Position numbers and translations under genes: made by a program
The notes under the pieces: generated by a model
The model's input: only the letters and a program-made list of their open reading frames with translations
Databases searched by the model: none
Told to the model about the DNA's origin: nothing
Source: a virus
Length of the DNA: 41,327 bases
Strand: one strand, 5' to 3'
IMG/VR virus record: IMGVR_UViG_3300033154_000500
Coordinates: 1-41,327 of that record
In this document: piece by piece, positions 1,062 to 37,827 of the stretch
Numbering within the stretch: position 1 is the first letter of the stretch
Layout: every line of letters starts with the position of its first letter

Positions 1062-3329
1062 TTAATCCACCAATTGACGATGCCGATTGATTTTTTTTAG
1101 ACTTCCCCATCTTCTCCCTTCCTTAAAGTCCACCTCCAGAGGAATAATAAAATCCCTTGGTGCAACATTTTCCATTATATTTCTTATTTCCATAACCGCT
1201 ATATCTAGTATATTTTCCTCTACCATATAAACTATATCATCGTGTATTTGTATAAGGGGTTCTATTACCCCAATTTCACTTAGACTACGGTAGACCGGAA
1301 CTAATTGCCCCATGGCCTCCTTGATTACCCCCTGAGCACCCATTTGAATTGGGGCATTACCAGCCTGCCTCTCCGCTTCAATTCGAATCCAGCGATTAGT
1401 TGATCTTATCCCTGGGATATACCGGATTCGACCCCACATGTCTCGTACATAACCATAACGTTTTGCCTGTTCCCCATTTGCTTTCATATAGGTCGCAATC
1501 CCCCGATAAATATCAAACCAGGACCTAATCATCTCCTCACAATCGGAGATAGACCATCCCTCTGCCCCACCCACAGTTAATTCCCTCTGGAGACCTTCTG
1601 CCGTAATCAGGTTGAGGATACCAAACCCAACTCGTTTGGCCGGATACCTATGTTTCATTTCATCAAGTTGGGGAATAGGGACTCCAAACATTCTACTTGC
1701 TGTTATTGCATGGATATCTTCTCCTCGCCAAAAAATTCCCATCATAGTTTCATCTTTACTGTCATTGGCAGCAACCCTCATTTCAACCTGACTATAATCA
1801 CCTGAGAGGAAAACATTACCTTCCCCAGCAACATAACAGTCCCTCACCTTTCTTCCCTCCTCAGAACGGGTAGGCTGTGCCATCAAATTGGGTTTGCTGG
1901 AGCTTAATCGTCCAGTAGCCACACGGGTAATCCGTAATGTCGTCCGGATTCGCCCATCAGGAGAAACCAATTTGGGGATAGCGTCGGCATAGCTGGTCTT
2001 CAACTTCTGGTATTCCCTCCAATCCATTATGTCCTGAACTGAAGGATGTAGGTGAATATACCTCTTGAGGATATCTCCTGCTGTGGATTTGTTGGTTGCT
2101 CCCTTCTTGGATTTGAATTTTCCCCCCTTAAGGTGCAATTCCAGTCGATCATAGATCAAGGTGGACATCTGCAGATAGGATGCCGGATTGATTGCTTTTC
2201 CCCCCAATAAGTGTCCAATTGTCAATTGCATCTTCCTCTGGATTAAGTCCATCCTCCCCTGAAAGTAATCACTAAGGGAGGAGAAAGCAGGAAGGGAAAC
2301 TGGCATCCCATTGGCCATCATATCAACCACCATTGGGAGGGCAGCCATATCCCGCCAGAACGTACCCTCTAACCCAAGACTTAGGATTCGCTCCCATAGG
2401 ATGGGGTAGATTCTAATGGTGGCATCTGCATCCCGTGCCGAGTACCAAATGGCCTTATCACGTGGAATATCGGACAAGTCGGCCTCTTCAAGCACACCAA
2501 GCACAGATTCTGCTTGCCCTGTATCAGACATCTTCCTCCAACTATTATAAGGTTCGATATCCTTCCCAGCTTCAATTGCGGACAATACTCTCTGTATTTT
2601 CCTTTTAATGTTTTGTGGCTGTCGTACATGAGGTTCCCCCTTTTTCCATTCAAGAACAGGAGCGGGGTTTGGCCATTCCATTTCCATTACCCGTTCCAAA
2701 TAGGCAATTGCTTTCTTCCTTGTAGCATTTCCTACCATCTCTGGATAGGACGACATCTTCATGCCGCAATGTCGGAAAGCAAGGGGCTTCAACCCCTGCG
2801 GTTCATTTTGAAGTAGATAGGCCATTACCATTGTATCCGCCACCTTTCGAGGCCAGATGCCCATTCTAGCAAGGACAGGCAGATCGTAGAGGGCGTTCTG
2901 AATGATGGTGATAGTGTCTCCGTAATTCACAGCGGCGTTCAGGGCATCCAGTGCAGGCTTTTGGTCGGCCATGATCACGTGGGATTCTCCTGGGATTACG
3001 GAAAAGCTAAGACACCAAGGCTTTCCCTTTGCCCATTCTGTATCAATGGCGATTATTGATGCCCCTTCGGTAATATTGGCTACTCCGGCTAAACTGATAA
3101 CTTGGTCATAATTCTCCTTCCCCTCCCATTTATCTACTGGGGGATGGGGTTCAATTTCACCCTTAATGACCTTACCTACCATTACCATATCACATTGGAA
3201 CATGATCATTAATTCCGGTGAGTGTAATCCAGCAGCGGGATGGTAAGTAGGTATCCAAGTACACTCATGTCCGAGAAGATTTACTGGACGGGGGATGCCG
3301 TGCAAAAGCTCCATGGAAACATTACTCAT
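1062..3329 (-). CDS. dpoZ: Family A DNA polymerase (DpoZ-type) carrying the C-terminal end of a uracil-DNA glycosylase
   Basis: A 755-residue PolA-type polymerase with proofreading exonuclease and no 5'-3' exonuclease. Exo I is DTE at 96-98, Exo II N145/D149, Exo III Y296/D300. Polymerase motifs are TGRLSSSKPN (about 472-481), motif A DYSQVEMR (511-518), motif B R561/K565/F569, and motif C HDD (696-698). In motif B the Tyr of the usual FGLIYG is Asn (FGILN). Residues 10-35 (HG...TYHPAAGL) are not polymerase but match the C-terminal His motif of family 4 uracil-DNA glycosylases, whose N-terminal part is two genes upstream; the HNH gene between them appears to have split a UDG-polymerase fusion. 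The start has AGGAGA 7 nt upstream, inside the HNH gene end. With PurZ and MazZ present it is a candidate aminoadenine-preferring DpoZ; polymerase identity is certain, Z preference inferred. Confidence 0.93.
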   Translation of the reverse strand: MSNVSMELLHGIPRPVNLLGHECTWIPTYHPAAGLHSPELMIMFQCDMVMVGKVIKGEIEPHPPVDKWEGKENYDQVISLAGVANITEGASIIAIDTEWAKGKPWCLSFSVIPGESHVIMADQKPALDALNAAVNYGDTITIIQNALYDLPVLARMGIWPRKVADTMVMAYLLQNEPQGLKPLAFRHCGMKMSSYPEMVGNATRKKAIAYLERVMEMEWPNPAPVLEWKKGEPHVRQPQNIKRKIQRVLSAIEAGKDIEPYNSWRKMSDTGQAESVLGVLEEADLSDIPRDKAIWYSARDADATIRIYPILWERILSLGLEGTFWRDMAALPMVVDMMANGMPVSLPAFSSLSDYFQGRMDLIQRKMQLTIGHLLGGKAINPASYLQMSTLIYDRLELHLKGGKFKSKKGATNKSTAGDILKRYIHLHPSVQDIMDWREYQKLKTSYADAIPKLVSPDGRIRTTLRITRVATGRLSSSKPNLMAQPTRSEEGRKVRDCYVAGEGNVFLSGDYSQVEMRVAANDSKDETMMGIFWRGEDIHAITASRMFGVPIPQLDEMKHRYPAKRVGFGILNLITAEGLQRELTVGGAEGWSISDCEEMIRSWFDIYRGIATYMKANGEQAKRYGYVRDMWGRIRYIPGIRSTNRWIRIEAERQAGNAPIQMGAQGVIKEAMGQLVPVYRSLSEIGVIEPLIQIHDDIVYMVEENILDIAVMEIRNIMENVAPRDFIIPLEVDFKEGRRWGSLKKINRHRQLVD

Positions 3330-3714
3330 TGTCTATTCTCCTATGTAGCACTAAATGGCAGTTTGCACACAGTAGTTCTATTTCACTGGGAAAATTGTTT
3401 TCTACTAACCATTTATAAAATCCGTAGTCACTTCCTGTTATCCTTCTATGCTCTTTCCCTCCTCCATTAACGTGATGAAATACTAAAGTTTCCGACCTAT
3501 TTTCCCCACACACAGAACACTTACCACCATAACCCTCTATCGCTTTCCCTAGCCATTTGTCGAATAGCTTTTTGCGTCTTTCCCTACTCCTCTGGTTCGC
3601 CCCTGTCTTGTTCTCTATATACCATAATTTGTGCTGCCTTCTTAATTTCTCTTTATTCTTTTGTCTATAATCTTTGTCATATTCATTCTTTTCCTGTTTA
3701 TTCTTATAGGGCAT
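3322..3714 (-). CDS. HNH homing endonuclease inserted in the UDG-polymerase gene
   Basis: A 130-residue protein with a basic N-terminal half and a C-terminal HNH nuclease: CSVCG (first zinc pair), FHHVNGGG (catalytic His-His and Asn), LLCANCHLVLHR (second zinc pair and last His). Its ATG overlaps the stop of the UDG N-terminal fragment, and its stop overlaps the polymerase start (AATGAGTAATG), so it fills the break between the two UDG halves exactly. Free-standing HNH enzymes of this kind cut and spread into phage genes. There is little room for an intron beyond the ORF, so a plain intercistronic insertion is more likely. Confidence 0.9.
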   Translation of the reverse strand: MPYKNKQEKNEYDKDYRQKNKEKLRRQHKLWYIENKTGANQRSRERRKKLFDKWLGKAIEGYGGKCSVCGENRSETLVFHHVNGGGKEHRRITGSDYGFYKWLVENNFPSEIELLCANCHLVLHRRIDNE

Positions 3715-4139
3715 TAGTATTTTCCCTCCTGAATATCCTGTATGACTTGTGCAGCTATTCTCCCCATTGTAATGATGTATTTTGGCTGCAACTTCAAAAT
3801 AGTAGGGATTAAGTGATTAGTAACGCAATTCCGGATTTCCTCAGCAGATGGGTCACGGTTTCCTTCAGGATGACAACGGATTATATTGTCCAACCAGACA
3901 CCCAAGCGACTAATCCCATTAATATCCAGATGGTGTCTTGCCTCTTCCCCACTCACTCCGATAAGAGGTCGGCCAGTCCTATCCTCCTCAATCCCAGGAG
4001 CTTCAGCGATTACCATGACCTGAGGGTTATTCGTTGGGGATATAAAATGAATTTCCCCCTCAACGATTTGCTTTCGGGATTGGACGAGGGCAGGGCATAG
4101 CTGGCAATTCCTCGTTCTTTTTTTTCTGGGTGTTGACAT
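3714..4139 (-). CDS. Uracil-DNA glycosylase family 4, N-terminal fragment
   Basis: 141 residues of the Fe-S uracil-DNA glycosylase family. Seen: C12 and C15, C89 and C105 as likely [4Fe-4S] ligands; IAEAPGIEEDRTGRPL (44-59), the active-site loop; IIRCHPEGNRDP (86-97); and PKYIITMGRIAAQ (119-131). The family's final His motif (HPAA) is missing here but present at residues 30-33 of the polymerase ORF. Reading GKY straight into SNVSMELLHG gives the normal family spacing, so the protein is cut rather than decayed. It may still act as a split enzyme with the polymerase-borne piece. AAGGA 7 nt before the ATG is the likely binding site. The first codons coincide with a dispersed repeat. Confidence 0.85.
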   Translation of the reverse strand: MSTPRKKRTRNCQLCPALVQSRKQIVEGEIHFISPTNNPQVMVIAEAPGIEEDRTGRPLIGVSGEEARHHLDINGISRLGVWLDNIIRCHPEGNRDPSAEEIRNCVTNHLIPTILKLQPKYIITMGRIAAQVIQDIQEGKY

Positions 4140-4182: not shown

Positions 4183-4689
4183 TTAATCTGGTAACAAAAT
4201 CTGTATTTCCACCTGAAATTTCCTGCAGAATCGGAAGAGACCTATTAAGGTTTGTTCCTCCTTTGTTACATAGTCATTCCCGTATGGATTGTTCATATAC
4301 TCCCAGCCTTCACCACTGGCATAGGCAAATAGTGCCCACCAAGAAGGTGGCATAATTATAAGCCCAAGTTTATCAGCCCAGCATAACCGACTTGGTTGTG
4401 TATCAAATATTGCTGATAGATGTCTGGAGTGCCATGTAATTTCTTTTCTAACAGTATTAAATCTGGAATTGTCAAAATAGGACGGAAAGAAGAATGGGTG
4501 CATTGACCCATCCGGACCATCTATAGATTCACAACCCCAATAACCCCAATCATGGAAGAAAATAGCAAGTAGTACTTGGAAATTGATACTTCCCCAGCCA
4601 TACAACTTGACCCATCCGATTAAGGTAAATAGTGGATGTAATAGAATTTGATGGCAACCAAAGAGTAAAGATCTAGTCCCTAATTTCAT
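4183..4689 (-). CDS. datZ: HD-domain phosphohydrolase, candidate DatZ (dATP triphosphohydrolase)
   Basis: A 168-residue single-domain protein with the HD metal-site pattern: H13 in GCHQILLHP, H46-D47 in FFHDWGYWG, further His at 64, 87 and 90, and D106 in CWADKLG. Size and H...HD...D order fit the small phage HD enzymes, including DatZ of aminoadenine phages, which strips triphosphate from dATP so that the polymerase uses dZTP. The nearby PurZ and MazZ genes make this the likely role, but HD proteins have varied substrates. A GTG at 4698 with AAGGA upstream is an alternative start adding three residues. It overlaps the end of the small gene upstream. Confidence 0.75.
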   Translation of the reverse strand: MKLGTRSLLFGCHQILLHPLFTLIGWVKLYGWGSINFQVLLAIFFHDWGYWGCESIDGPDGSMHPFFFPSYFDNSRFNTVRKEITWHSRHLSAIFDTQPSRLCWADKLGLIIMPPSWWALFAYASGEGWEYMNNPYGNDYVTKEEQTLIGLFRFCRKFQVEIQILLPD

Positions 4690-4690
4690 A

Positions 4691-4846
4691 TTAATCACCC
4701 ACCATTCCTTCTGGTCTATATTTGTTTATTACATTATCCAATTTTACTGCTACATCCAATTCATTATGCATCCAGAGCCATGCTGATAGTTCATCCAATT
4801 CATCTATCAGTATCTGCAATTTTGCTTTTAATCCTAGATCAGGCAT
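4691..4846 (-). CDS. Small acidic helical protein
   Basis: A 51-residue ORF starting with ATG overlapping the stop of the ERCC4 gene (ATTAATGCCTGA), with GGGAGGAG at good spacing. It is predicted to be almost all helix, with a Leu/Glu/Asp-rich middle (ILIDELDELSAWLW). It ends within the start region of the HD gene. Overlaps on both sides and the strong binding site support a real gene. Function unknown. Confidence 0.65.
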   Translation of the reverse strand: MPDLGLKAKLQILIDELDELSAWLWMHNELDVAVKLDNVINKYRPEGMVGD

Positions 4847-5552
4847 TAATCTCCTCCCATATTTTACTGGCTAATTTAGGGCCAATCCCCTCAATTTCCA
4901 TTAGTTCTTCCTCACTTGCATTTAGTAGATCAAACATATCAGCAAAGTGTTCCCCAAGTTTTCTTGCCTTATCCCATCCGATTCCAGTAAGCTGATTTGC
5001 CATGCGAGTAACCAAATTGGGTTTTGACAATTGGGCATGGACAATTGGTTTCTGGAATTGGAGGTGGGATTTGTGCCCTATCCACTTCTTCCCCCACCAA
5101 CCATGACATGCCCTTAACCATATTGCGGTTTCCCAGTGATTACTAGTCATTACAGTAACAATTCCACATATTACCTGGAGTGTATTGATAAAATTGTATA
5201 TATCCCGTGCCATAAACCGACGAGAACCCTGGGCAGCAGCTATCCATTTCCCATTTTTACCTATCCGTTGGAGTATTCCGGTTCTGCGGTCTGGTCTCCA
5301 TATTCCCTCAATCAAGAGGTAGACTTGATCATACTGTTGGGTTAGACCAATAATTTGGTGTCCAGAGAGACGTCCTGTGGTCATAGACTGGAGGAAATCA
5401 AGTAGGGTTTTACGTTCTACTCCGATATTAATTGGTCCAGAGGGACCATTGCCAGTGAAGGCAAAATCGGCATACTCCAGACGGCATATTATTGGTTTTT
5501 GTAGGAGAGGGGCAATTTCCACTGAACCTATTCGAGAGTCGACGAGGATCAT
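4839..5552 (-). CDS. ERCC4 (XPF/MUS81-type) nuclease with helix-hairpin-helix tail
   Basis: A 237-residue protein. The N-terminal part is an ERCC4 nuclease: D5 in ILVDSRIG and VERKTLLDF (45-53), the ERK signature of XPF-family structure-specific endonucleases. The C-terminal 50 residues hold tandem helix-hairpin-helix motifs (LTGIGWDKARKLGEHF and IEGIGPKLASKIWEEI) that bind branched or duplex DNA. Such enzymes cut flaps and forks, so a role in recombination or resolving replication forks is likely. It overlaps both neighbours by a few bases, as in a tight operon. Family call firm; exact substrate unknown. Confidence 0.85.
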   Translation of the reverse strand: MILVDSRIGSVEIAPLLQKPIICRLEYADFAFTGNGPSGPINIGVERKTLLDFLQSMTTGRLSGHQIIGLTQQYDQVYLLIEGIWRPDRRTGILQRIGKNGKWIAAAQGSRRFMARDIYNFINTLQVICGIVTVMTSNHWETAIWLRACHGWWGKKWIGHKSHLQFQKPIVHAQLSKPNLVTRMANQLTGIGWDKARKLGEHFADMFDLLNASEEELMEIEGIGPKLASKIWEEINA

Positions 5553-7986: not shown

Positions 7987-8082
7987 TGCTGGGGGCAGGA
8001 TTCGAACCTGCAATCCCCCAAGGCAATGCCTTGAATGCTCTACTCACTTCGTAATTTGACATGTCATTTGAGCTACCCCAGC
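7987..8082 (-). tRNA. tRNA-like gene with over-long D-loop, anticodon unclear
   Basis: The acceptor stem is a perfect 7 bp (GCTGGGG with CCCCAGC) followed by A. The T-arm is perfect (GCAGG, loop TTCGAAT, CCTGC). The D-stem GCTC/GAGC is present, but its loop is about 29 nt instead of 8-11 and includes the palindrome TGACATGTCA. The anticodon arm reads CAAGGC ATT GCCTTG, a perfect 6-bp hairpin with three loop bases. Opening it to the normal seven-base loop places ATT as anticodon but C at position 33 instead of T. It is thus either a degenerate tRNA or a tRNA-like element. No CCA is encoded. Confidence 0.5.
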
Positions 8083-11199: not shown

Positions 11200-11431
11200 T
11201 TATTGCTCCTTTCCAAATTAAATCATACAAATCTGTTATATCTACCTTCAATGCCTCCCCCATTGTTGTTAGGCATTTCAGGGACGGTACTGTCTTACAG
11301 GATATTACTCTACTTATATGGGATGGACTATACCCCGTCTGGAGGGCCAGTCTGGATACATTAATCCTCAATTCCTTCGGCATATTCGGCTTGGGGTCTC
11401 CAATTGTCATTGTGAATTCCGCTTTCTTCAT
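11144..11431 (-). CDS. XRE-family helix-turn-helix regulator
   Basis: 95 residues with a Cro/CI-type HTH (about residues 21-68): NVSRLALQTGYSPSHISRVISC, with the recognition helix SPSHISRV, then PSLKCLTTMGEALKVDITDLYDL. No peptidase or oligomerisation domain, so it is Cro-sized. It is the first gene of the minus-strand early operon and is divergent from the operon that ends in purZ and mazZ. The short control region between them holds two face-to-face -10 boxes, so it probably regulates both directions. Confidence 0.82.
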   Translation of the reverse strand: MKKAEFTMTIGDPKPNMPKELRINVSRLALQTGYSPSHISRVISCKTVPSLKCLTTMGEALKVDITDLYDLIWKGAINAREQTGTGGVHNPRLGP

Positions 11432-11437
11432 GTCTTA

Positions 11438-11446
11438 ATTGTATCA
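11438..11446 (-). promoter_or_regulatory. Extended -10 element, leftward early promoter
   Basis: On the minus strand this reads TGATACAAT, an extended -10 (TG, one base, TACAAT), just before the regulator start at 11431. Together with the matching site on the other strand at 11494-11502 it forms an inverted repeat. No good -35 is seen. Because the start site would lie only a few bases before the ATG, the transcript would be nearly leaderless. Confidence 0.5.
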
Positions 11447-11472
11447 CGTCAAACGCAGCGGTGGAAGAGCCC

Positions 11473-11502
11473 TTGCGCACAACGCACACAAAGTGATACA
11501 AT
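11473..11502 (+). promoter_or_regulatory. Rightward promoter of the purZ/mazZ operon
   Basis: TTGCGC (11473-11478), an 18-bp spacer and TACAAT (11497-11502) with TG at the extended -10 position. The same -35 word occurs in the promoter at 18600. The spacer is rich in TTGTGCG-type repeats (minus strand), possible operator sequence for the XRE protein. Confidence 0.6.
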
Positions 11503-11524
11503 CGAAGCTGAGAGGAGGAGAGAA

Positions 11525-11773
11525 TTGGAAGACCGGATTCGATTACACATCATTAATCGTGAACTGGATAATACTAATCCAGATGGGCCTTTCCGTGTTG
11601 GAAGGCAGCAATTGAATAGGGAGAGGAAACGGATTATTAAGCGACTGGGAGGTAGAGACCCCAAGTGGTTTGCAGTTAGGGGGAAGAAAGGAGGAATGTC
11701 CCATGAGGAAATAAAATTGTACCAGACAAAAAAAGTAATAGTGGGAATATTAGACCAATTAGAGGGAGGATAG
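11525..11773 (+). CDS. Small basic protein, first gene of the Z operon
   Basis: 82 residues from a TTG start, chosen because GAGGAGGAG lies just upstream and the promoter ends at 11502; the frame is open further upstream but would run through the control region. It is basic, with RQQLNRERKRIIKRLGGRDPKW and a KKGGMSHEEIKLYQTKK segment. Predicted helices could bind nucleic acid. No family is recognised. As first gene of the operon it may help control or serve aminoadenine synthesis. Confidence 0.65.
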   Translation: MEDRIRLHIINRELDNTNPDGPFRVGRQQLNRERKRIIKRLGGRDPKWFAVRGKKGGMSHEEIKLYQTKKVIVGILDQLEGG

Positions 11774-11933: not shown

Positions 11934-11946
11934 AATGGAGGATAAT

Positions 11947-13041
11947 ATGATACCAAAGGGTAAATTTTCAGTAATTATTGGGAGCCAAGCAGGGAGCGAA
12001 AGCAAGGGAAAACTCAGTGGTTGGCTTTGTGACAAGTATAAACCAGATCTACTCGTAATGACCAGTTCACCCAATGCTGGACATACAGTAGTAACACCCG
12101 AGGGGAAGAAAAAAGTAAGCTATCATTTGCCAATTGGCGCAGTTATGTGTGACTGCCCTATCGTGCTTGGTCCAGCCAGTCTAATCAATCCTTTTACCTT
12201 TAGGAAGGAAATAAAGGATTTGGGGATTGAACCATCAAGGATCACATTGGATTCTAGGGCATCAATAATCACTCAAAGCCATATTGGTGAGGAAACCAAG
12301 GGCCGCCTTAGTGATATTGGTTCCACATTGCAGGGAATTGGGGCATGCAGAACAGGAAAAATGAGAAGGGATGGCAAACATGAATTTGCCCTTGACTGGA
12401 AAGAGAAGTTGGAGGATATAGGGATAACAGTTATACCCTATACTACTGACATCATCAATAGCAGACTTGCTAGAAACGAGCGGGTTCTGTGTGAAACGAC
12501 CCAGGGATTTGACCTTTGCCTTGAACATGGAATTGACCCAACTCATTGCACTAGCAAAATTATAAGTCCTGCAATGGCAATGGCCGAGGCCGGAGTTGCT
12601 CCTTCTCGTATTGGTAACATTTTTGGTGTTGTTAGGCCTTTCCCAATCAGGGTGAATAATCGGACTGGTAATAGCGGAGGATATCAGGAAGCAAGGGAAA
12701 TTTCATGGCAGGATATTGCAAGAAGGTGCGGATATCCAGGTAATAATGAGGATTTTGGGGAAATTACTACTACTACTAAATTACCCCGACGGGTCTTCAA
12801 TTTTTCTTGGGTCCGGTTTGCCCAATTTCTTCAGATTTGTAGGCCAACATCCCTCTGTCTCCAATTTGCCAATTATATTGATTGGGGTGCATATAAAGCG
12901 AAGGAATGGGATGCTTTGCCCTCATCAGTAGTTAATTTTATCCTGGTACTCTCCAAGCAAGTATCTGTGAATTTTGTTGGAACTGGGCCGGACCATGAGG
13001 ACATGATTGAAGTTGGGCTAGCCAGTAGGAGGATGGAATAA
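11947..13041 (+). CDS. purZ: PurZ: N6-succino-2-aminoadenylate synthase (PurA homologue)
   Basis: 364 residues of the adenylosuccinate synthetase family. The P-loop region is GSQAGSESKGK (12-22), where PurA has GDEGKGK: the catalytic Asp (E. coli D13) is Ser17 here. The partner His is kept (H46 in NAGHT). The phage enzyme would join aspartate to dGMP, giving the precursor that host PurB converts to 2-amino-dAMP. Asp loss at this site is a recognised mark of PurZ. It is shorter than bacterial PurA (about 430). The ATG at 11947 is preferred over 11935 because GGAGGA lies between them at correct spacing. Its stop overlaps the mazZ start, so both are co-translated. Confidence 0.9.
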   Translation: MIPKGKFSVIIGSQAGSESKGKLSGWLCDKYKPDLLVMTSSPNAGHTVVTPEGKKKVSYHLPIGAVMCDCPIVLGPASLINPFTFRKEIKDLGIEPSRITLDSRASIITQSHIGEETKGRLSDIGSTLQGIGACRTGKMRRDGKHEFALDWKEKLEDIGITVIPYTTDIINSRLARNERVLCETTQGFDLCLEHGIDPTHCTSKIISPAMAMAEAGVAPSRIGNIFGVVRPFPIRVNNRTGNSGGYQEAREISWQDIARRCGYPGNNEDFGEITTTTKLPRRVFNFSWVRFAQFLQICRPTSLCLQFANYIDWGAYKAKEWDALPSSVVNFILVLSKQVSVNFVGTGPDHEDMIEVGLASRRME

Positions 13042-13532
13042 TGAAATCGGAGAACATACTGGATGGGGCAGAGGATAAGCGTACTGATCCCAAACATGGC
13101 TGCGGTTATATTCCTTTTGCCTACCATCTAATTCCTCTGGAAGGGTTGGCAAAGGTGGCCTCCGTTATGAAAGCAGGAGAGGACAGAGGGGATAATTGGA
13201 GAAAAATGCCAATTGAGGAACATCTCAATCATGCTATATCCCATATTGTAGGTTATCTTAAGGGGCGACATGCTGATCATCACTTGGCAAATGCATGCTG
13301 CAGGGTACTTATGGCGTTGGATTTGGATGAGAAGGAAGTATTGCCCTGCCCTTCTTTGGGACCGGACTGGGCAGGAGTAGAGATTAGTGATGAAATAGAT
13401 CTTGCCTATTCTATAAAGGAAACATTCGATGATTGTATGGCTAAAGTAGCAGTTAAGGGGACAGGAAAACAAACAAAAACGGACAGGAGAAGAGGAGACC
13501 GGCGGAAGGAAGAAGAGGAACCCTTTCCTTAG
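13041..13532 (+). CDS. mazZ: MazZ-type dATP/dGTP pyrophosphohydrolase
   Basis: 163 residues. The core (about 18-95) has the pattern of the phage dATP/dGTP diphosphohydrolase N-terminal family: FAYHLIPLEGLAKVASVM, GEDRGDNWRKMPIEEHLNHA and HIVGYLKGRHADHHLANAC. In aminoadenine phages this kind of enzyme turns dGTP into dGMP, the substrate of PurZ. The tail (about 140-163) is a charged RRRGDRRKEEEE stretch. The ATG overlaps the purZ stop (TAATGA). An intrinsic terminator follows directly. Family assignment is from memory of the motif; catalytic residues are not individually certain. Confidence 0.8.
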   Translation: MKSENILDGAEDKRTDPKHGCGYIPFAYHLIPLEGLAKVASVMKAGEDRGDNWRKMPIEEHLNHAISHIVGYLKGRHADHHLANACCRVLMALDLDEKEVLPCPSLGPDWAGVEISDEIDLAYSIKETFDDCMAKVAVKGTGKQTKTDRRRGDRRKEEEEPFP

Positions 13533-19410: not shown

Positions 19411-20847
19411 GTGGAAATTAACTACATAGCCGAGCCAACTCCAGCAAAACTCCACGCATGTAATTCCTTCTATCGTGGAATCCGAGGCCCTGTCCGTTCA
19501 GGGAAGAGTACGGCTATGTGTATCGAGATTATGAACCGTGCTAGACAACAGAGACCAAACCAGCAGGGGATTCGCCGGACTCGTTGGGCTGTAATCCGCA
19601 ATACCTACCGTGAACTAGAAGATACCACCCTCCGGACATGGCTTATGTGGTTCCCCGAATATATCTTTGGACAATTTAACCGCCGAACTATGACGCACAC
19701 TATACAATTTAATGATATATACATGGAGGTAATGTTTAGGGCATTGGATCGGCCAGATGATGTGGCCAAACTCCTCTCACTGGAGTTGACCGGAGCTTGG
19801 ATTAATGAGGCCAAGGAAGTTCCTAGAGTAATTGTTGATGTCCTTGGTGATAGAGTGGAACAGTACCCCCCGAAAATGGACGAAGGTTGCACCTGGGGTG
19901 GAGTTCTTATGGACACCAACTCCCCCGACGAAGATCATTGGTGGGCCGAGCTTGAGGCTAAAACCCCTAAAGGATGGACATTCTTTATTCAACCTGGTGC
20001 TCTCAAGGAAGTAAAAGGAAAGTTCCTGCCCAATCCCAAGGCTGAGAATGTACGGAACTTAAATGGGGGACATAATTATTATATTAAGCGTATGGAGGGG
20101 AAAAAGGATTCATACATTAGGGTTTACTACTGTAACCAGTTTGGATATGTAGAGGAAGGGAAGAGGGTCCATCCAGAATATGTTGATGCTACCCACTGCT
20201 CCCCCTCACCCCTTATCCCAGACCCAAGGGACCTGCTGGTAGTTGGGTTAGATTTTGGTCTTACCCCCGCCGCTGCTTTTTTCTCCCATAAACCTAATGG
20301 TCAGTGGTGGCTCTTCCATGAAATTGCCACTGAGGACATAGGGATTAAAAAGTTTGGGGAACGGCTCCTCCTCCCTTATATTTTAAAGAACTTTATGGAC
20401 TTCAAAATTGAAATTTACGGTGATACTCATGGGAACACCAGAGGACAAAATGATAGCCGAACCCCAGGGGAAATATTCGATGCCTTAGGATTGACAATTA
20501 AGATGCCCTCTATGGAAGGTGGACCCACTATGCGCCGTGAGGCCCTATCTGCCCCTCTTAGTCGAATGATAGATGGAGAACCTGGGCTGCTTGTGGACCC
20601 CTCCTGCAAAGTAATCCGCAAGGGGCTAAGCTCCAAGTACATATATAAGCGGATTAGGGTTGTGGGGGACGAGAAGTTTCATGATAAACCAGACAAAAAC
20701 TTTTGGTCCCATATATGTGAGGCCGCAGAACATGCCATGGTAGGGGCTGGAGAAGGAGAACTACTGACCCGCCGCCCTATTAAAAAGAAGAAAGGTAGAC
20801 CCCAATCCTATATGGGTATGGGAGAACAGAACTGGATGGCAGCCTAA
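19411..20847 (+). CDS. Terminase large subunit (packaging ATPase-nuclease)
   Basis: 478 residues from a GTG start preceded by GGGGGAG. Walker A is GPVRSGKST (26-34), the Walker B-like strand and catalytic Glu are in LELTGAWINEA (about 124-134), and the RNase H-type nuclease has D281 (VVGLDFGL) and D338 (IYGDTHGN) with an acidic third site further on. Full length for TerL. It cuts and pumps DNA into the prohead with the small subunit and portal. Confidence 0.93.
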   Translation: MEINYIAEPTPAKLHACNSFYRGIRGPVRSGKSTAMCIEIMNRARQQRPNQQGIRRTRWAVIRNTYRELEDTTLRTWLMWFPEYIFGQFNRRTMTHTIQFNDIYMEVMFRALDRPDDVAKLLSLELTGAWINEAKEVPRVIVDVLGDRVEQYPPKMDEGCTWGGVLMDTNSPDEDHWWAELEAKTPKGWTFFIQPGALKEVKGKFLPNPKAENVRNLNGGHNYYIKRMEGKKDSYIRVYYCNQFGYVEEGKRVHPEYVDATHCSPSPLIPDPRDLLVVGLDFGLTPAAAFFSHKPNGQWWLFHEIATEDIGIKKFGERLLLPYILKNFMDFKIEIYGDTHGNTRGQNDSRTPGEIFDALGLTIKMPSMEGGPTMRREALSAPLSRMIDGEPGLLVDPSCKVIRKGLSSKYIYKRIRVVGDEKFHDKPDKNFWSHICEAAEHAMVGAGEGELLTRRPIKKKKGRPQSYMGMGEQNWMAA

Positions 20848-22210: not shown

Positions 22211-22366
22211 ATGCCAGTACACATTAGAAAAGTAAAAGGTGGTTATAGGGTAACACATAAGGGCAAGGCCTCTGCTAAGAAGACGACTAAGGCTAAGGCC
22301 ATTAAACAAAAGAAGTTACTTGATGCAGTACGTCATGGGTGGAAACCCAAGAAGAGGAAAAAATAG
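22211..22366 (+). CDS. Small very basic protein
   Basis: 51 residues, 22 of them Lys or Arg (MPVHIRKVKGGYRVTHKGKA..., ending KPKKRKK). Such MPV-x-KVKGGY proteins are common next to phage portal genes, with no known role. The stop overlaps the portal GTG start, and its last codons carry the portal's binding site. Confidence 0.7.
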   Translation: MPVHIRKVKGGYRVTHKGKASAKKTTKAKAIKQKKLLDAVRHGWKPKKRKK

Positions 22367-24411
22367 TGGACAATAAAATTGTAAACACACAGGACAAAAC
22401 CCTCAAGACGGAACAAGCTCTTATTAAGGAAGCCAAGGGGCGTTTCCGCCTCGCTGAGAACTATGAGCGGGAGAACCGGAAAGAGGCTATTGACGACCTT
22501 AATATGTTGGCAGGGAGAAACCATTGGCCGGCCTCCATTGTTCGCAAAAGGGAATTGGAAGAGCGTCCTGTTCTTACTATCAACAAACTCCCATCCTTTG
22601 TAGACCAGGTAACCAATAATAGCCGTCTTAGTAAGATGTCTATAAAAATCCATCCCTATGGTGGAGGATCCACTCCTCAAATAGCCAATACTATTGCTGG
22701 TCTTATCCGCAATATAGAGCAGATATCCGATGCCGATGTGGCATACCAGACTGGGTTGGAGGGAGCAGCCAATAATGGTTTTGGTTATATTAGGGTTATC
22801 ACTTCCTTCTCTGACGAATCCTCTTTTGAACAGGAAATAAAAATCAAGAGAGTTCGTAATCCTATGACAGTCCGGTTAGACCCTCATCATGTAGAAGCTG
22901 ATGGCTCCGATTCTCGATGGGGATTTGTGGATGAGAAGATATCACGGGCTGAGTATGAAGTACGGTGGCCCCACCTGGCCCCCCCAACTCCTATTGATGG
23001 TGATGATGGGGGAAATTGGGTAGAGGATGATCTTGTCCGAATTGCAGAATACTGGACTAAGGAACCACTCCGGAAGAGACTCTATCTCCTTTCTGATCAT
23101 AGAACAGTAGATGGGGACAAGTGGGATTCTGTCGTGGAGGAACTTAGGGCCACAGAAAAAATAATCCATCTTGAACCAAACCCGCAGGACCCGCAGGGAC
23201 AGCCTGTTGAGGTTGAAGGTCCAGCCCCAGAGGGGTCCAATTTCCCCCAGACGGTATTGAACCCAACACCTACTATTACCCGACAAAGGACAATTGACTC
23301 TCACAAGGTAGTTCAGTACTTAATTGATGGGGAGAAGATTATCGAGGGTCCCACAGATTGGCCAGGGAAATACATCCCTATTGCTCCTGTCTGGGGTAAA
23401 GAAATAATTGTTAATGACAAACGTTATCTCCGAGGGGTTATCCGATTTGCCAAAGATCCCCAGCGGATGTATAATTATTTCCGGACAGCAGCAACAGAGA
23501 CAGTTGCCCTCGCCCCCAAAGCCCCCTATATTATGGAGGAAAGACAAATTGAAGGGCATGAGGAGGAATGGTCATCCCTGGGAAAGACCAATCTGCCTTT
23601 TCTGCTATACAAAGGGGTTCAAGGCATTGAAAGACCCGCTCGACAGGTGGTAACCCAAACTGCAATTGGGGAAATAACGGAATCTAACCTTTCCAATGAT
23701 GAAATGAAGGCAACCACTTCCCTTTTTGATGCCTCCCTTGGAGCACAGGGGAATGAAGTCTCTGGACGTGCAATCCAAGCCCGCCAATATAAGGGTGATC
23801 TTGCCAACTTTACCTACCAAGATAATCTGGCACGAGCAATCAAATTTATCGGGAAGATATTAGTAGACCTTATTCCCAAAGTGTATGACACTGAACGCCA
23901 ATTAATGATTCTTAATGATGACGAGACTGAAGAATTGGTAATGGTAAACCAAGATGTGGATGGGACAATCATTAATGACCTCTCTCTTGGACGGTATAAA
24001 GTAACAGTTTCTGTTGGTCCCAGTTTTGCTACACAGAGGCTGGAGGCAACGCAATCTATGCTCGATTTCATGCGGGTGGCCCCTGATGCTGCTTCCCTCA
24101 TTATGGATTTGGTTGCGGAAAACATGGACTGGCCAGGAGCAATTAAGATTGCCAAACGATTTAAAAAGATGTTGCCCCCAGGAATTGATGATGATGGCCC
24201 ACCCCAGCCGCAACAACCATCAATTGATGATATTATTAAGGAATTAAAATCTCAGGGGATTACATTAGGGAATGAAATGAAGAAACTGAAAATAGTAAAG
24301 GATAGACGAGACCTTACCGATCATGATAAGGAAATGGCCGAGGGTGGAGCACAGGGGGCATTGAATGCTATGGGACTAGGGGAACAAGAAACAGGAGATA
24401 AAAATGGATGA
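22366..24411 (+). CDS. Portal protein, P22 gp1-like
   Basis: 681 residues from the GTG at 22366, chosen because GAGGAAAAAATA precedes it and it overlaps the upstream stop (TAGTG); a GTG at 22339 would add nine residues. Sequence features of the P22-type portal: RENRKEAIDDLNMLAGRNHWP, ERPVLTINKLPSFVDQVTNN near the start, a long middle domain, and an acidic/Pro C-terminus. It forms the dodecameric ring through which DNA is packaged and ejected. Length fits P22 gp1 (about 725). Confidence 0.9.
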   Translation: MDNKIVNTQDKTLKTEQALIKEAKGRFRLAENYERENRKEAIDDLNMLAGRNHWPASIVRKRELEERPVLTINKLPSFVDQVTNNSRLSKMSIKIHPYGGGSTPQIANTIAGLIRNIEQISDADVAYQTGLEGAANNGFGYIRVITSFSDESSFEQEIKIKRVRNPMTVRLDPHHVEADGSDSRWGFVDEKISRAEYEVRWPHLAPPTPIDGDDGGNWVEDDLVRIAEYWTKEPLRKRLYLLSDHRTVDGDKWDSVVEELRATEKIIHLEPNPQDPQGQPVEVEGPAPEGSNFPQTVLNPTPTITRQRTIDSHKVVQYLIDGEKIIEGPTDWPGKYIPIAPVWGKEIIVNDKRYLRGVIRFAKDPQRMYNYFRTAATETVALAPKAPYIMEERQIEGHEEEWSSLGKTNLPFLLYKGVQGIERPARQVVTQTAIGEITESNLSNDEMKATTSLFDASLGAQGNEVSGRAIQARQYKGDLANFTYQDNLARAIKFIGKILVDLIPKVYDTERQLMILNDDETEELVMVNQDVDGTIINDLSLGRYKVTVSVGPSFATQRLEATQSMLDFMRVAPDAASLIMDLVAENMDWPGAIKIAKRFKKMLPPGIDDDGPPQPQQPSIDDIIKELKSQGITLGNEMKKLKIVKDRRDLTDHDKEMAEGGAQGALNAMGLGEQETGDKNG

Positions 24412-24840: not shown

Positions 24841-25623
24841 ATGTTAGATGAACAAGGTAATGAGATAGTAGAGGTTATTGAGGACCAGAATCAGGAAGAT
24901 CCACCTGCATCTGCACCTGTCACTGAACCGGTTACGACTCCAATAGAAGAGTCAAAACCAGGGGGGGATGGGGTCCAGAAAAGGATAGATGAAATCACAC
25001 GGAAGAGAAGAGAAGCTGAGCGTGATGCTGCTTATTGGCGTGGGATGGCTGAGGCCAAAACCGCCCCCGTAGCTCCGGAGACACCGCCAAGGACCGAGGA
25101 GGGGCAAGACCTTGACCCAAACGACTTTGATAGTGACGCTGATTACTTAAGGGCTGTGGCAACCCAAACGAGAGATGAAATCAGGGCAACGGCCATGGCA
25201 GAAAGGAAGAAAGAAGCGGCTACGGCAGGGCAGGTAACCATTGCCAAACAGTATCAGAATGCAAGAACAAAGCATGCTGATTTTGACGAAGTGGCATTGG
25301 CCCCTTCAGTACAGATTACACAGCAAATGTTTGATGCTGCAATAGGTGATTCCCTTGGTGATGTATTATACCATTTAGGGAAGAATCCTACTGAGGCAAG
25401 TAGAATTGCCACTCTCTCCCCAGTACAACAGATTAAGGAAATAGGCAAAATTGAAACTAAATTAACAACGGCTACAACGCCAAGAACAAGTACTACTCCC
25501 AATCCTCCAAGCATAGTAGGTGGAGGGGGAGGTTCTCCTCCGGCAAAAAAAGAAGAGGAAATGAACCGAACCGAACTCCACCAGAAGTGGGAAGCTGATA
25601 GGCTAAAGGAAGCGGGATTGTAG
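24841..25623 (+). CDS. Scaffolding protein
   Basis: 260 residues, low complexity, Pro/Glu/Thr-rich N-terminus, a central charged helical part (RIDEITRKRREAERDAAYWRG) and a short basic/acidic C-terminal helix (NRTELHQKWEADRLKEAGL). Composition, helical make-up and position directly before the coat gene are those of phage scaffolding proteins, which guide coat assembly and leave the prohead. GGAGGAAACG precedes the ATG. The call rests on context and composition, not on a motif. Confidence 0.75.
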   Translation: MLDEQGNEIVEVIEDQNQEDPPASAPVTEPVTTPIEESKPGGDGVQKRIDEITRKRREAERDAAYWRGMAEAKTAPVAPETPPRTEEGQDLDPNDFDSDADYLRAVATQTRDEIRATAMAERKKEAATAGQVTIAKQYQNARTKHADFDEVALAPSVQITQQMFDAAIGDSLGDVLYHLGKNPTEASRIATLSPVQQIKEIGKIETKLTTATTPRTSTTPNPPSIVGGGGGSPPAKKEEEMNRTELHQKWEADRLKEAGL

Positions 25624-25636
25624 TGAAAGGAAAATA

Positions 25637-26881
25637 ATGGCTGATAATTTTTTAACTCATAGTATGATTGCAGAGCGTTCCCTATTTGATCTGCAGAACC
25701 AACTCACCATGTCCAAATACGTGTATAAGGGATATAATGGGGAATTCAATGCTCCTGTTGGTGGGTACAAAAAAGGTGCGAGCGTATCTGTTCAACTTCC
25801 AAACAAATTTAGAGCAAAAGATGGTGTGGTTCTTGATACGGTAGGAATCCAGGAACAGTCCACTACTGTCACAGTGAACAAACAGAAGCACGTTGCGTGG
25901 GATTTTCTGGAGACCGACCTAACATTGAAAATCGCAAAATTCTCCAAGAAGTACACTCGGCCTGCCACCATTACCTTGGCCAACTTAGTTGACCTTGATG
26001 GTTGCAAGAAATATGTGGATTTGTACAACATGGTGGGAACTCCTGGGACGACTCCGGCTACTTTTGGGGTATTAGCAGATGCGGCCACGAGAATGGATAA
26101 TGAGGCCATGCCTCGAACAGACCGACTCTGCATTTTCTCCCCCAAAGCCCATTGGAGTATGGCAGACGGCGAACTCAAAGGAGTTTTCCAGCAGAACATA
26201 GTGGATAAACTCCTCCGGAAGGGATTCATTGGAAACTTTGCCCTTATGGATTTTTACATGGACCAGAACATCCAGACCCATTTGGTAGGACATCACAGTG
26301 CTGGTGCAACTCCGGTAATGAATGGTGCTACTGCTGAAGGTGCGACCTCCATTGTTACTAATGGCTGGAGTGGAGCTAATACCCTGAAGAAGGGTGACGT
26401 GTTTACCATTGATGGTGTGGTTGGGGTCAATCCAGTTTCCGGTCAGGCTTGGGAAGGGAATGAACTCCGACAGTTTACCGTAACAGCAGATGTAGCCGAT
26501 GTTGGAGGAGACATGACAATTGCCATTTCCCCCAAAATCTACAGTTCTGCCGCAGGAGAAGATTACCTCCCCTACCAGACCGTAGTGGCACTTCCGGTTA
26601 ATGGTGCAGCTATTACCGTCGTGGGAACGGAGGATACTTCCTATCCACAGAACATGGCATATCATCCGGATTGTTTTGCCCTTACTATGGTTCCTTACGC
26701 TCGACCTAAGAGTGCTGGGCAATCGGTGATGTGGGGACAGGCTAATGATCCTCAGATGGGATTATCTATCACGGTAAGTACAGGCTTCGATATCAAGAAT
26801 TACCTTGAGGTTACCCGTTTGGATATTCTCTATGGTTGGGATACGATTAGACCGGAATTGGGACTCCGGATTACGGGGTAG
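25637..26881 (+). CDS. Major capsid protein, P22 gp5-like coat
   Basis: 414 residues, close to P22 coat (430). The N-terminal part (YKGYNGEFNAPVGGYKKGASVSVQLPNKF) and the layout of an HK97 core plus a beta-rich inserted domain (about 215-330) fit the P22 coat family; the ending LYGWDTIRPELGLRITG is typical. A strong terminator follows, as often behind coat genes. Shells of about T=7 would be expected from the family and genome size. Confidence 0.9.
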   Translation: MADNFLTHSMIAERSLFDLQNQLTMSKYVYKGYNGEFNAPVGGYKKGASVSVQLPNKFRAKDGVVLDTVGIQEQSTTVTVNKQKHVAWDFLETDLTLKIAKFSKKYTRPATITLANLVDLDGCKKYVDLYNMVGTPGTTPATFGVLADAATRMDNEAMPRTDRLCIFSPKAHWSMADGELKGVFQQNIVDKLLRKGFIGNFALMDFYMDQNIQTHLVGHHSAGATPVMNGATAEGATSIVTNGWSGANTLKKGDVFTIDGVVGVNPVSGQAWEGNELRQFTVTADVADVGGDMTIAISPKIYSSAAGEDYLPYQTVVALPVNGAAITVVGTEDTSYPQNMAYHPDCFALTMVPYARPKSAGQSVMWGQANDPQMGLSITVSTGFDIKNYLEVTRLDILYGWDTIRPELGLRITG

Positions 26882-29554: not shown

Positions 29555-29734
29555 ATGGCAAATAAAAAATCTGCTCCTATAAAAGTGAGCTATAAAGAAC
29601 CAAGAAGTGTAAGTATCAAAAAGGCAGCAAATGGTTATGTCATCTCTACCTACAATGAACATGGAGAGGCGGTGGAGGTTGCTAAGACTATAACGGCTGC
29701 AAACAAAATTGCCAAGAGGATATTGGAGGGTTAA
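29555..29734 (+). CDS. Small basic protein, function unknown
   Basis: 59 residues (MANKKSAPIKVSYKEPRSVSI...), beta then helix (KTITAANKIAKRILEG). The ATG at 29555 is preferred (GGAGAAGTCA before it) over 29537. A similar short beta-helix protein is often found in phages beside gp4/gp10-type genes. Function unknown. Confidence 0.65.
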   Translation: MANKKSAPIKVSYKEPRSVSIKKAANGYVISTYNEHGEAVEVAKTITAANKIAKRILEG

Positions 29735-29735
29735 T

Positions 29736-31166
29736 TTGCGAATAGAAATTCCATTTACTGGTCCATCTTACAAGTCGGAATCCCTGATTGTCTCTCCACA
29801 AGAATGCATAAACTTTTACCTCCGACCCTATCCTGAGCTTGGGGAAAATAAGATGGCCTTATTTGGTACTCCTGGGTTGGAATTATGGGTCTCCCTTGAG
29901 GGAGGGGAAGTTCGTGCTTTTCTTCCTGTAGGAGACTATCTTGGTGTGATAGTAGGAGATCGTCTCCAAAGGATAAGCACTACTGGTGGGATTACGGACA
30001 TAGGAGATGTTTCTCTTCTTCCCTCATCAGGGCAAATAAGTATGGCTACTAATGGATTAGATATTGTTATTGTGGGAGGGGCTATTGGTTATATCTATGA
30101 TTTGGCTACTGAAACACTCTCCCAAATAGTAGATCCTGATTTCCCTGGGGGAAACAATGTAGTTCAAACTGATGGTTATTATTTAGTTAATAAGCCAGGA
30201 ACAGGGCAGATATGGCGTTCAGATTGGAATGATGGTTCCAGTTGGGACGGTCTTGCCTTTTCCACTGCTGGAGGAGATCCAGATAATATAGTTTCCATTA
30301 TTGTAGACCACCGAGATGTTTGGGTTATTGGGGAACGCACCATCGAGATTTGGTACAATACGGGGGCAGCAACATTCAATTTTGCCCGAATTGAGGGAGC
30401 ATTCATTGAACAGGGGGGAATTGCCCCTCATGCCCGAACGAAGATTAATAATGCAGTCTACTGGCTTGGACGAGACCAATCTGGACAAAATCAGGTATTC
30501 CAGGCTACTGGACGTCAACCTAAAATAATTAGTACTATTCCAATTAACAATATAATCTCCCAGTGTGAACAGTCTAATGCCTTTATGTTCTCCTATCAAC
30601 AACTGGGACATAATTTTATCGTACTTACATTCCCCTCCTCAGACATTACCCTCGTCTATGACTCGACAGTGGGGATGTGGCATCAACGTTCTTCCCTAAT
30701 TACAGGAGTGAACCGAAGATGGAGGGCAAACTGTCATGCCCTGTTCAAGGGAGATCACATAGTAGGGGATTTCACCAATGGGAAGCTCTACAAGCTCAAG
30801 ACGGACGTGTATGATGAGGATGGGGACCCGATGGTGGCTGTCCGTACCACTCCCGTAATCCGGAGCAAGCAGAATCGAATCACAGTCGACCAAGTGCAGG
30901 TTGTGAACGAACCAGGGGTTGGGTTGATCACCGGAGGGGTAGAGGACGTTGACCCCCAAGCGATGTTCAGTTGGTCCAGAGATGGTGGCCGTAATTTCTC
31001 TGCGGAAGTGGATATGCCTCTTGGTAAGATAGGAGAGACGGAAAATACGTCGAGGGTATGGCAATTAGGACAAGGAAAGAATTGGGTCTTTCGTTATAAG
31101 ATTAGTGCTGCTGTCAAGAGGGTAGTGTTGGGGGCCGTAATAGAAGCGGAGGAAGATGATGCCTAA
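29736..31166 (+). CDS. Packaged-DNA stabilisation protein, P22 gp10-like
   Basis: 476 residues from a TTG at 29736 (GGAGGGTTAAT before it). FTGPSYKSESLIVSPQECIN and NFYLRPYPE near the start and the repeated beta-propeller-like blocks (IWRSDWNDGSSWDGLAF, IGERTIEIWYNTG, WHQRSSL) are those of the P22 gp10 family, which forms the ring under gp4 in the tail and plugs the packaged DNA. Length matches P22 gp10 (472). Very sure of family. Confidence 0.88.
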   Translation: MRIEIPFTGPSYKSESLIVSPQECINFYLRPYPELGENKMALFGTPGLELWVSLEGGEVRAFLPVGDYLGVIVGDRLQRISTTGGITDIGDVSLLPSSGQISMATNGLDIVIVGGAIGYIYDLATETLSQIVDPDFPGGNNVVQTDGYYLVNKPGTGQIWRSDWNDGSSWDGLAFSTAGGDPDNIVSIIVDHRDVWVIGERTIEIWYNTGAATFNFARIEGAFIEQGGIAPHARTKINNAVYWLGRDQSGQNQVFQATGRQPKIISTIPINNIISQCEQSNAFMFSYQQLGHNFIVLTFPSSDITLVYDSTVGMWHQRSSLITGVNRRWRANCHALFKGDHIVGDFTNGKLYKLKTDVYDEDGDPMVAVRTTPVIRSKQNRITVDQVQVVNEPGVGLITGGVEDVDPQAMFSWSRDGGRNFSAEVDMPLGKIGETENTSRVWQLGQGKNWVFRYKISAAVKRVVLGAVIEAEEDDA

Positions 31167-37800: not shown

Positions 37801-37827
37801 GGAGAATACAATGAAACAATTAAGTAA
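34816..37827 (+). CDS. Large ejection protein with inserted GNAT and ADP-ribosyltransferase-like modules
   Basis: 1003 residues. The backbone is a helical internal virion protein: a Gly/Ala hydrophobic region (about 86-120), a helical core (about 130-390) and a further part after 830 ending in a hydrophobic stretch (about 915-950) and a GDGNGDGNGNGNKN tail. Two modules interrupt it. About 515-620 is GNAT: YPPYREQGVASSFLEQTAEI and LVRLYKKSGFKVDKV. About 704-820 is ART-like: RIFYRGEGKHLG, WVGTKKTAELYGT and GYHALKFADEEAGIAVFDKSKF. Both modules are more AT-rich than the flanks, which suggests late insertion. It probably enters the cell with DNA and acts on host proteins early; enzymatic activity is unproven. 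Confidence 0.82.
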   Translation: MEKKIIKAQLADGRVLEFPEGTEDSVIDATVKKEMDIPEGGSMPISTLGAGEEPPTMRIGPPVPPAPTTEQKPLGERILEEVPQVGGGIVGGVAAGTTGAGLLPVVAAVALGAGTGEAYKQLGQHLSGSLDAPKTSIDAAKRIGKAGLTEGGWEMVGGLVMKGFGKIIAPLKNKMVKEGADAIDMFHDKIKPVVLLPAEATESRVLDLLQNVSESSIVGGSSIQDFKTQRMKFFDDFADSLIDEFGKRTDTTDLGNLFVASISNARAVHSKAANILYNSVKAGRAKTEIGSLKRFAKPLQRRAVKLEGIEAKNAGDDLLDAVMDLPDKLSYKEATELRSRLISRINEFSILNKKAPAIGKAKKMVGLLDKAIGKSLKGIGVLTTKVGPIRRKGIRVVDSSTISKMPQSVYSTWATKENIELLSKGVTPVKKIRHGGLGGVIVLKEETGEPGLVLISNFKGDLVKKLRKQGLDVKSYGSYKDQIDKIIKWQSEKFGKEVQFPIQTTKDTLRAEGFITGILDSKGKLIGQFDLGGVDLRMGTKAEGTVNLLNFEIYPPYREQGVASSFLEQTAEIARDKGYNKIVLTTEKERAEDLVRLYKKSGFKVDKVLPDGKVEMSMDLTKGEIGVPTSPAGPTPYEAWRTANRFYRDGQKKFNSTLIRRLVKLADDTGTGAEMIAPAIFKPRHISTVRKVKIALLGSPTGVPHGRIFYRGEGKHLGRFEKMIDGVDTWVGTKKTAELYGTPKKIIAKPGTKILNESDLPEIRRLMNRKGKNIFEIIGHDDVNKFFSLLIKKAKKEGYHALKFADEEAGIAVFDKSKFTPYVNEGTETWRKLQGFFMQHILQKSTDTSGDIIGRKLINNISGKPGSFGIPIMKEVFTEPQIKALRTFGKAVQLTQERQAEGAGRVLIQLTQAGALGAILTGNLALPAATVIIAPAVMSKMLLNPKVAKLLTTGLALPAKSPEAAGILTRLVAAAWRIQYGDGNGDGNGNGNKNKGEYNETIK

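Follow-up and report, generated by a model that had tools for sequence, protein, structure and literature searches.

The synthetase gene and its neighbour

The complete IMG/VR virus record IMGVR_UViG_3300033154_000500 (41,327 bases, here called the window) carries a gene for a homologue of PurA which, to judge by its residues and phylogeny, is a PurZ-type synthetase, with a DUF5664 gene directly behind it. Taken with changes in the DNA polymerase and in a small protein encoded next to it, the residues and phylogeny of this synthetase make DNA containing 2-aminoadenine (Z) the most likely reading for this phage. The features at the centre of the locus are the following.

11936..11941, plus strand: Shine-Dalgarno-like TGGAGG, seen in the sequence 5 nt ahead of ATG 11947
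11947..13041, plus strand: purZ, putative succino-amino-deoxyadenylate synthetase (phrog_1211, 5e-52; NF038379; PDB 6fm1/7odx; residues and tree)
13041..13532, plus strand: DUF5664 (PF18909) dATP/dGTP diphosphohydrolase-like gene, MazZ candidate (PF18909; alignment with characterised DUF5664 proteins)

The open reading frame (ORF) 11935-13041 (+), which holds the motif GSQAGSESKGK, also offers an in-frame ATG at 11935; because of the position of the TGGAGG, we prefer the start at 11947 and with it the numbering Ser17. At this residue Ser has taken the place of the catalytic Asp of PurA (E. coli Asp13; S-2L Ser23), and the catalytic His is retained (window His46, S-2L H52), so that the ORF and the residue table bear out what the initial annotation had noticed. 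The table covers eight members of the window clade in S-2L PurZ numbering, and the window has Ser23, His52, Thr132, Arg146, Gln190, Arg240-Val241 and Thr273, with Gln305-Phe306-Ala-Asn308 at the ATP site, where PurA mostly has Lys-x-Asp. Val241 and several other residues of the table are common to PurA and thus non-diagnostic; Thr273 and Q-F-A-N are present in all eight members, PurAs having Asp23 and Gly273, and Asn/Gln-Phe-x-Asn/Gln at the ATP base is a feature of the PurZ group. The best PDB match was phiVC8 PurZ (E 1e-34), followed by S-2L PurZ (2e-30), and the PurA matches were weaker (archaeal 6e-27, bacterial 2e-18).

The neighbouring gene, which overlaps purZ by one base, scored 41.5 bits with PF18909 (dATP/dGTP diphosphohydrolase, N-terminal) against a Pfam cut-off of 27, in agreement with the pyrophosphohydrolase-type gene described there by the initial annotation. 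Proteins of the DUF5664 family hydrolyse dATP/dGTP (PMC12884076).

Phylogeny of the synthetase

The initial annotation had proposed to place 11947-13041 among PurA and PurZ proteins. In a tree of 49 proteins, from which Vibrio phage pv27 and Flavobacterium phage MaF61 were excluded due to their long branches, the window and seven relatives form a clade of their own (support 100/99) that lies outside PurA. The PurZ group (phiVC8, SH-Ab 15497, S-2L and others) and the PurZ0 group (Wayne and others) are separate clades, each at 100/99, and a Bacillus phage/Clostridia clade has 97/93. The window clade, the PurZ group and the Bacillus/Clostridia clade are joined at 100/99, with no resolution of the branching order among the three. 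The window synthetase falls in neither of the described phage clades, and since an NCBI virus survey of 2026 lists two phage groups, PurZ and PurZ0 (PMC12884076), the window clade, as delimited by this tree, is additional to them; its members come mostly from metagenomic viral contigs.

A phage PurA that converts IMP to AMP would share the family-level likeness of the window synthetase to PurA (PF00709). However, the Ser in place of the catalytic Asp, the Thr at 273, the PurZ-type ATP site and the tree position outside PurA make that identity very improbable, and the conversion of dGMP to succino-dZMP is the likeliest activity of an enzyme that is of PurZ type by residues and phylogeny. More than 12 related viral contigs show the same purZ gene, order of genes and residues, so the observation is not a matter of chance. 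The contig of the nearest relative (76%), L033, falls in the bin of a Dehalococcoidia genome, no more than a hint as to the host.

Homologues outside the window clade were also noted. The pv27 homologue carries the canonical Asp. A bacterial clade of PurA homologues in which Ser replaces the catalytic Asp was found on the chromosomes of Hellea, Rhizobium, Devosia and Novosphingobium (L059:4058-8129, L062:4082-8207, L065:4037-8191 and L071:4106-8149), each within a conserved three-gene cassette made up of a protein of about 640 aa, the PurZ-like enzyme and a protein of about 380 aa without assigned function. The larger protein has RNase_H_2 and P-loop AAA domains and a weak DUF429 match in L059 and L062, and the Hellea cassette adjoins a type I restriction-modification system; the cassette is a candidate bacterial defence or nucleotide system. 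Many Clostridia metagenome-assembled genomes (L034-L051) hold a PurZ-like clade with the motif GQAGSCGKGK, sister to the protein of Bacillus phage vB_BpsS-140 (L009), and on the contig of a Methanophagales metagenome-assembled genome (L056, an ANME-1-type archaeal bin) a PurZ-like gene is broken by a TAA stop.

The DNA polymerase

The minus strand at the start of the window encodes a polymerase of the PolA family that includes an exonuclease domain and is derived from a fusion with a family-4 uracil-DNA glycosylase (UDG).

1062..3329, minus strand: PolA-family DNA polymerase with an N-terminal family-4 UDG remnant, the C-terminal third of that domain (PF00476, 2e-87; PF01612, 3e-13; Arch_udg C-terminal match)
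1611..1613, minus strand: codon of Asn573, equivalent to Klenow Tyr766 and Phe in known DpoZ (alignments)
3322..3714, minus strand: HNH endonuclease ORF splitting the UDG-PolA gene (phrog_2255, 3e-14; overlapping stop/start codons)
3714..4139, minus strand: N-terminal part of the family-4 UDG domain of the split UDG-PolA (PF03167, 2e-17; Arch_udg, 9e-29)

Klenow Tyr766 packs on the nascent base pair and governs fidelity (PMC4882331), and a Tyr-to-Phe change at this position of helix O is the sole change common to both DpoZ groups (PMC8599892). The window has Asn573 there and not Phe; the initial annotation's reading of the gene as DpoZ thus stands for the PolA domain and fails on this residue. 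We gathered 44 relatives of the polymerase and then checked their records for purZ. Asn occupies the position in 16/16 PurZ-bearing records read (13 of the 44-relative set and three later ones), and Tyr in 8/8 records without PurZ, a comparison limited to records of at least 30 kb. A Fisher test of Asn against PurZ (16:0 versus 0:8, p 1e-6) was set aside because it disregards relatedness.

In a polymerase tree computed without the Klenow-Tyr766 column, six state changes were counted in total, the known DpoZ included, and two strictly independent contrasts fell on supported branches, both in the expected direction. In addition, there is L117, whose polymerase is 61% identical and syntenic and has Tyr; its interval corresponding to purZ holds small unrelated ORFs only, with no purZ, and no HD or NDT protein is found. 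L116 also has Tyr. It could be argued that Tyr-to-Asn is a trait inherited from the ancestor of the polymerase subfamily that coincides with purZ by chance, as the supported branches provide no more than two independent contrasts. We regard this as rather unlikely, given that L116 and L117 have Tyr inside an otherwise Asn clade, that L134, L135, L138 and L139, also with Tyr, are placed between Asn lineages, and that the position is the very one altered in both DpoZ groups. The link between Asn and purZ is the strongest new evidence that these sequences offer for Z-DNA.

As to the structure of the gene, UDG-PolA is a single ORF in L081, L004, L079 and other relatives. The HNH ORF of the window splits it within the UDG domain; homologous HNH ORFs lie elsewhere in L109 and L111, and a UDG part detached from PolA is likewise seen in L116, L117, L129-L131 and L143. 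A group I/II intron around the HNH ORF was rejected as Rfam gave no match, and an intein was rejected because the UDG part, the HNH ORF and PolA lie in different reading frames and their stop and start codons overlap.

The slot 5′ of the polymerase

Directly 5′ of the UDG-PolA gene lies a slot whose occupant differs between related phages.

4183..4689, minus strand: protein of probable HD-type fold (H-HD-D motif), candidate dATP-removing enzyme (AF2 model; VIA-align; slot swap; directly 5′ of the UDG-PolA gene)
4839..5552, minus strand: ERCC4/Hef-like nuclease flanking the slot, a conserved neighbour (PF02732, 1e-10)

The initial annotation took the product of 4183-4689 for DatZ. The HD motif is present, with H15/H20, H48-D49 and D108 invariant in the family, but the protein had no match among Pfam, PHROG, NCBIfam or PDB sequences, and a direct homology to DatZ was rejected, blastp giving none and hhalign a p of 0.51. 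An AF2 model from seven homologues reached pLDDT 81 and pTM 0.78 (an earlier one from four sequences, with pLDDT 56, was discarded). VIA-align of this model returned mostly HD hydrolases with a modest best Z of 5.9, and Foldseek E values were non-significant; with Z values this modest, the HD-type fold is only probable. The protein remains a candidate for a DatZ-like role on the basis of its modelled fold and genomic context.

In most PurZ-bearing members the slot is filled by an HD or an NDT-like protein, the two being mutually exclusive. The HD type was found in the window, L108, L109, L111, L115, L126, L133 and L202-L204; an NDT-like type in L106 (same genome as L033), L005, L114, L118, L119 and L142; and a second NDT-like type in L110 and L112. 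L121 and L078 encode an NDT-like domain as a fusion with DUF5664, L136 and L145 encode one as a separate ORF, and fragment contigs such as L113 do not cover the slot. The first of the two NDT-like types belongs with the DUF4406/DUF7768 proteins and has an invariant Glu; neither NDT-B against PDB sequences nor the NDT-A profile against PDB gave anything significant. None of the HD, NDT-like or fused types occurs in any Tyr-polymerase locus.

PurZ0 phages turn dATP into adenine by DUF5664, DutZ and DmtZ, the last of the NDT family, and PurZ phages use DatZ (PMC12884076). From these pathways and the slot swap we infer a dATP-removing role for the HD protein and its functional exchange for dAMP-removing NDT-like proteins. 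HD and NDT-like folds are, on the other hand, widespread in other contexts, the HD family has no sequence link to DatZ and the folds nearest to its model include cyclic-nucleotide phosphodiesterases, all of which would suit counter-defence or the degradation of nucleotide signals, tasks unrelated to the dATP pool. Such tasks seem unlikely to us in view of the strict tie of the slot types to purZ and the Asn polymerase, their mutual exclusion and the DUF5664-NDT fusions.

Virion module and other features

11318..11773, plus strand: small conserved ORF ahead of purZ, no assigned function (32-59% identity in most purZ-bearing relatives checked); its real start is probably further 3′
19411..20847, plus strand: terminase large subunit (phrog_2, 4e-17)
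22339..24411, plus strand: P22-type portal (PF16510, 3e-167)
24841..25623, plus strand: head scaffolding protein (phrog_8865, 6e-33)
25637..26881, plus strand: P22-type coat protein (PF11651, P22_CoatProtein, 6e-38)
29709..31166, plus strand: P22 gp10-like head-completion/stabilisation protein (PF11134, Phage_stabilise, 2e-11; phrog_578, 1e-118)

The P22-like virion genes of the initial annotation are confirmed, the portal, coat and gp10 families exceeding their cut-offs. Its statement that the best-studied Z-phages are siphoviruses is too narrow, since phiVC8 (PMC8342488) and ZP6 (PMC8515928) are podoviruses; a podovirus morphology is for the same reason no novelty, and the suggested widening of the morphological range comes down to the head-portal module. 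The P22 portal cut-off was reached by none of 16 named purZ phage records and by 6/11 purZ-bearing viral records tested, the window included, and Ochrobactrum phage OH, with an annotated purZ, has an SU10-type head. The P22-type module therefore appears to be new among the Z-phages tested.

Two further observations were made in the window. A 1003-aa protein of the virion module (34816-37827) has a GNAT acetyltransferase domain at residues 486-603, with relatives that are only partly homologous, and a tRNA-like Rfam match at 7987-8082 (-) scores 39.6 bits with about 26 extra D-arm bases, ARAGORN making no call.

Proposed pathway

Gene identities, residues, phylogeny and co-occurrence are established here, and all enzymatic activities, as well as Z in the virion, are inferred from them. 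PurZ would join dGMP and aspartate, with ATP, to form succino-dZMP, and host enzymes would complete dZTP. The DUF5664 protein would probably supply dGMP and lower dATP, and the HD protein would probably remove dATP, a DatZ-like task performed by another HD family; in most related phages an NDT-superfamily protein takes this slot instead, as DmtZ does in PurZ0 phages. The PolA, derived from a UDG-PolA lineage whose purZ-less members keep Tyr, would incorporate dZTP, with Tyr-to-Asn at the helix-O position, Phe in known DpoZ groups, as the putative adaptation. It is likely that the phage makes Z-DNA via a third, independently assembled pathway. The fuller proposition, that Z has been assembled at least a third time with a separate PurZ clade, an unrelated UDG-PolA, Tyr-to-Asn, and an HD enzyme exchanged for NDT-superfamily proteins, we hold to be evenly balanced.

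Several findings weigh against the making of Z-DNA by this phage. The synthetase reaches 177 bits with NCBIfam NF038379, below the curated cut-off of 300, and the polymerase reaches 78.9 and 48.2 bits with the DpoZ models NF038380 and NF038381, the cut-offs being 500 and 350; its UDG-PolA gene is, moreover, cut into a UDG part, HNH and PolA. In the DUF5664 protein, the acidic E-x-x-D loop aligned in the Wayne and SH-Ab 15497 proteins is deleted throughout the window clade (a catalytic role of this loop is not established by our analysis), and PF18909 is recognisable in part of the related contigs only, several purZ-bearing relatives showing no recognisable copy, which leaves the activity of the window protein uncertain. 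To these are added the lack of DatZ homology in the HD protein, the weak similarity of the NDT-like proteins to DmtZ (p 0.012) and of NDT-B to NDT-A (p 0.0036), and the clustering of the Asn/PurZ association by phylogeny, which limits its statistical independence. The complete set of PurZ, MazZ, DatZ and DpoZ announced by the initial annotation is consequently retained for a PurZ-type enzyme, and for MazZ at the level of the PF18909 family, its member here being divergent. A phage whose PurZ makes dZTP and which lacks a true DatZ and DpoZ could have DNA with a mixture of A and Z, in keeping with the missing DatZ homologue, the polymerase far under the DpoZ models and the absent DUF5664 loop. 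However, the polymerase residue and the slot enzymes shift together with purZ, suggesting selection for Z over A, and we consider such a partial replacement improbable.

If Z-DNA is made as proposed, its machinery has seemingly been assembled by nature more often than known, and a third clade equipped with a polymerase family of its own would amount to a replicated evolutionary experiment beside the two DpoZ and two PurZ groups (PMC12884076). It would indicate that selection of Z over A depends in part on the Klenow Tyr766 position, a residue that two groups alone could not single out (PMC8599892), with the purZ-less close relatives L116 and L117 as natural controls. The HD/NDT slot may hold new enzymes of the nucleotide pool, and the P22-type virion would broaden the head types known to package Z-DNA.

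Comparison with known systems

The window shares portal, coat, scaffold and gp10-like head genes with the P22-type podoviruses and differs from the named Z-phages tested, none of which carries a P22-type portal. Its HD protein resembles DatZ in small size, predicted HD-type fold, H...HD...D spacing and linkage to purZ; it is unlike DatZ in having no detectable sequence homology and in being encoded before the polymerase, outside the purZ operon. The likeness to DmtZ, an NDT-family dAMP hydrolase/transferase, concerns the relatives: an NDT-like protein with an invariant Glu fills the HD slot in most of them, and fusions with a pool-regulating enzyme exist; however, these proteins are DUF4406/DUF7768-type and weakly similar, and the window itself is without one. 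With DpoZ-1 and DpoZ-2 the polymerase has in common the PolA family and a changed residue at the Klenow-Tyr766 position in purZ-bearing phages, although it has Asn and not Phe, belongs to the UDG-PolA fusion lineage and lies outside both groups.

PurZ0 of Arthrobacter phage Wayne and its relatives has Ser for Asp and a stand-alone DUF5664 neighbour, as in the window, and an NDT-superfamily partner, as in many relatives of the window phage. It belongs to a different clade with a nucleotide site of Thr-Met-x-Asp (or Ser-Phe-x-Asp), and the PurZ0-phage enzyme DutZ was not found in the window. Compared with the PurZ group, the window enzyme forms a separate clade, with GSE[AS]KGK for GSTGKG, Gln for Asn305 and other partner genes, at about 29-32% identity to the PurZ of phiVC8, SH-Ab 15497 and S-2L; yet it has with these three the Ser for Asp, the retained His, Thr273 and the Phe and Asn/Gln of the ATP site in common.
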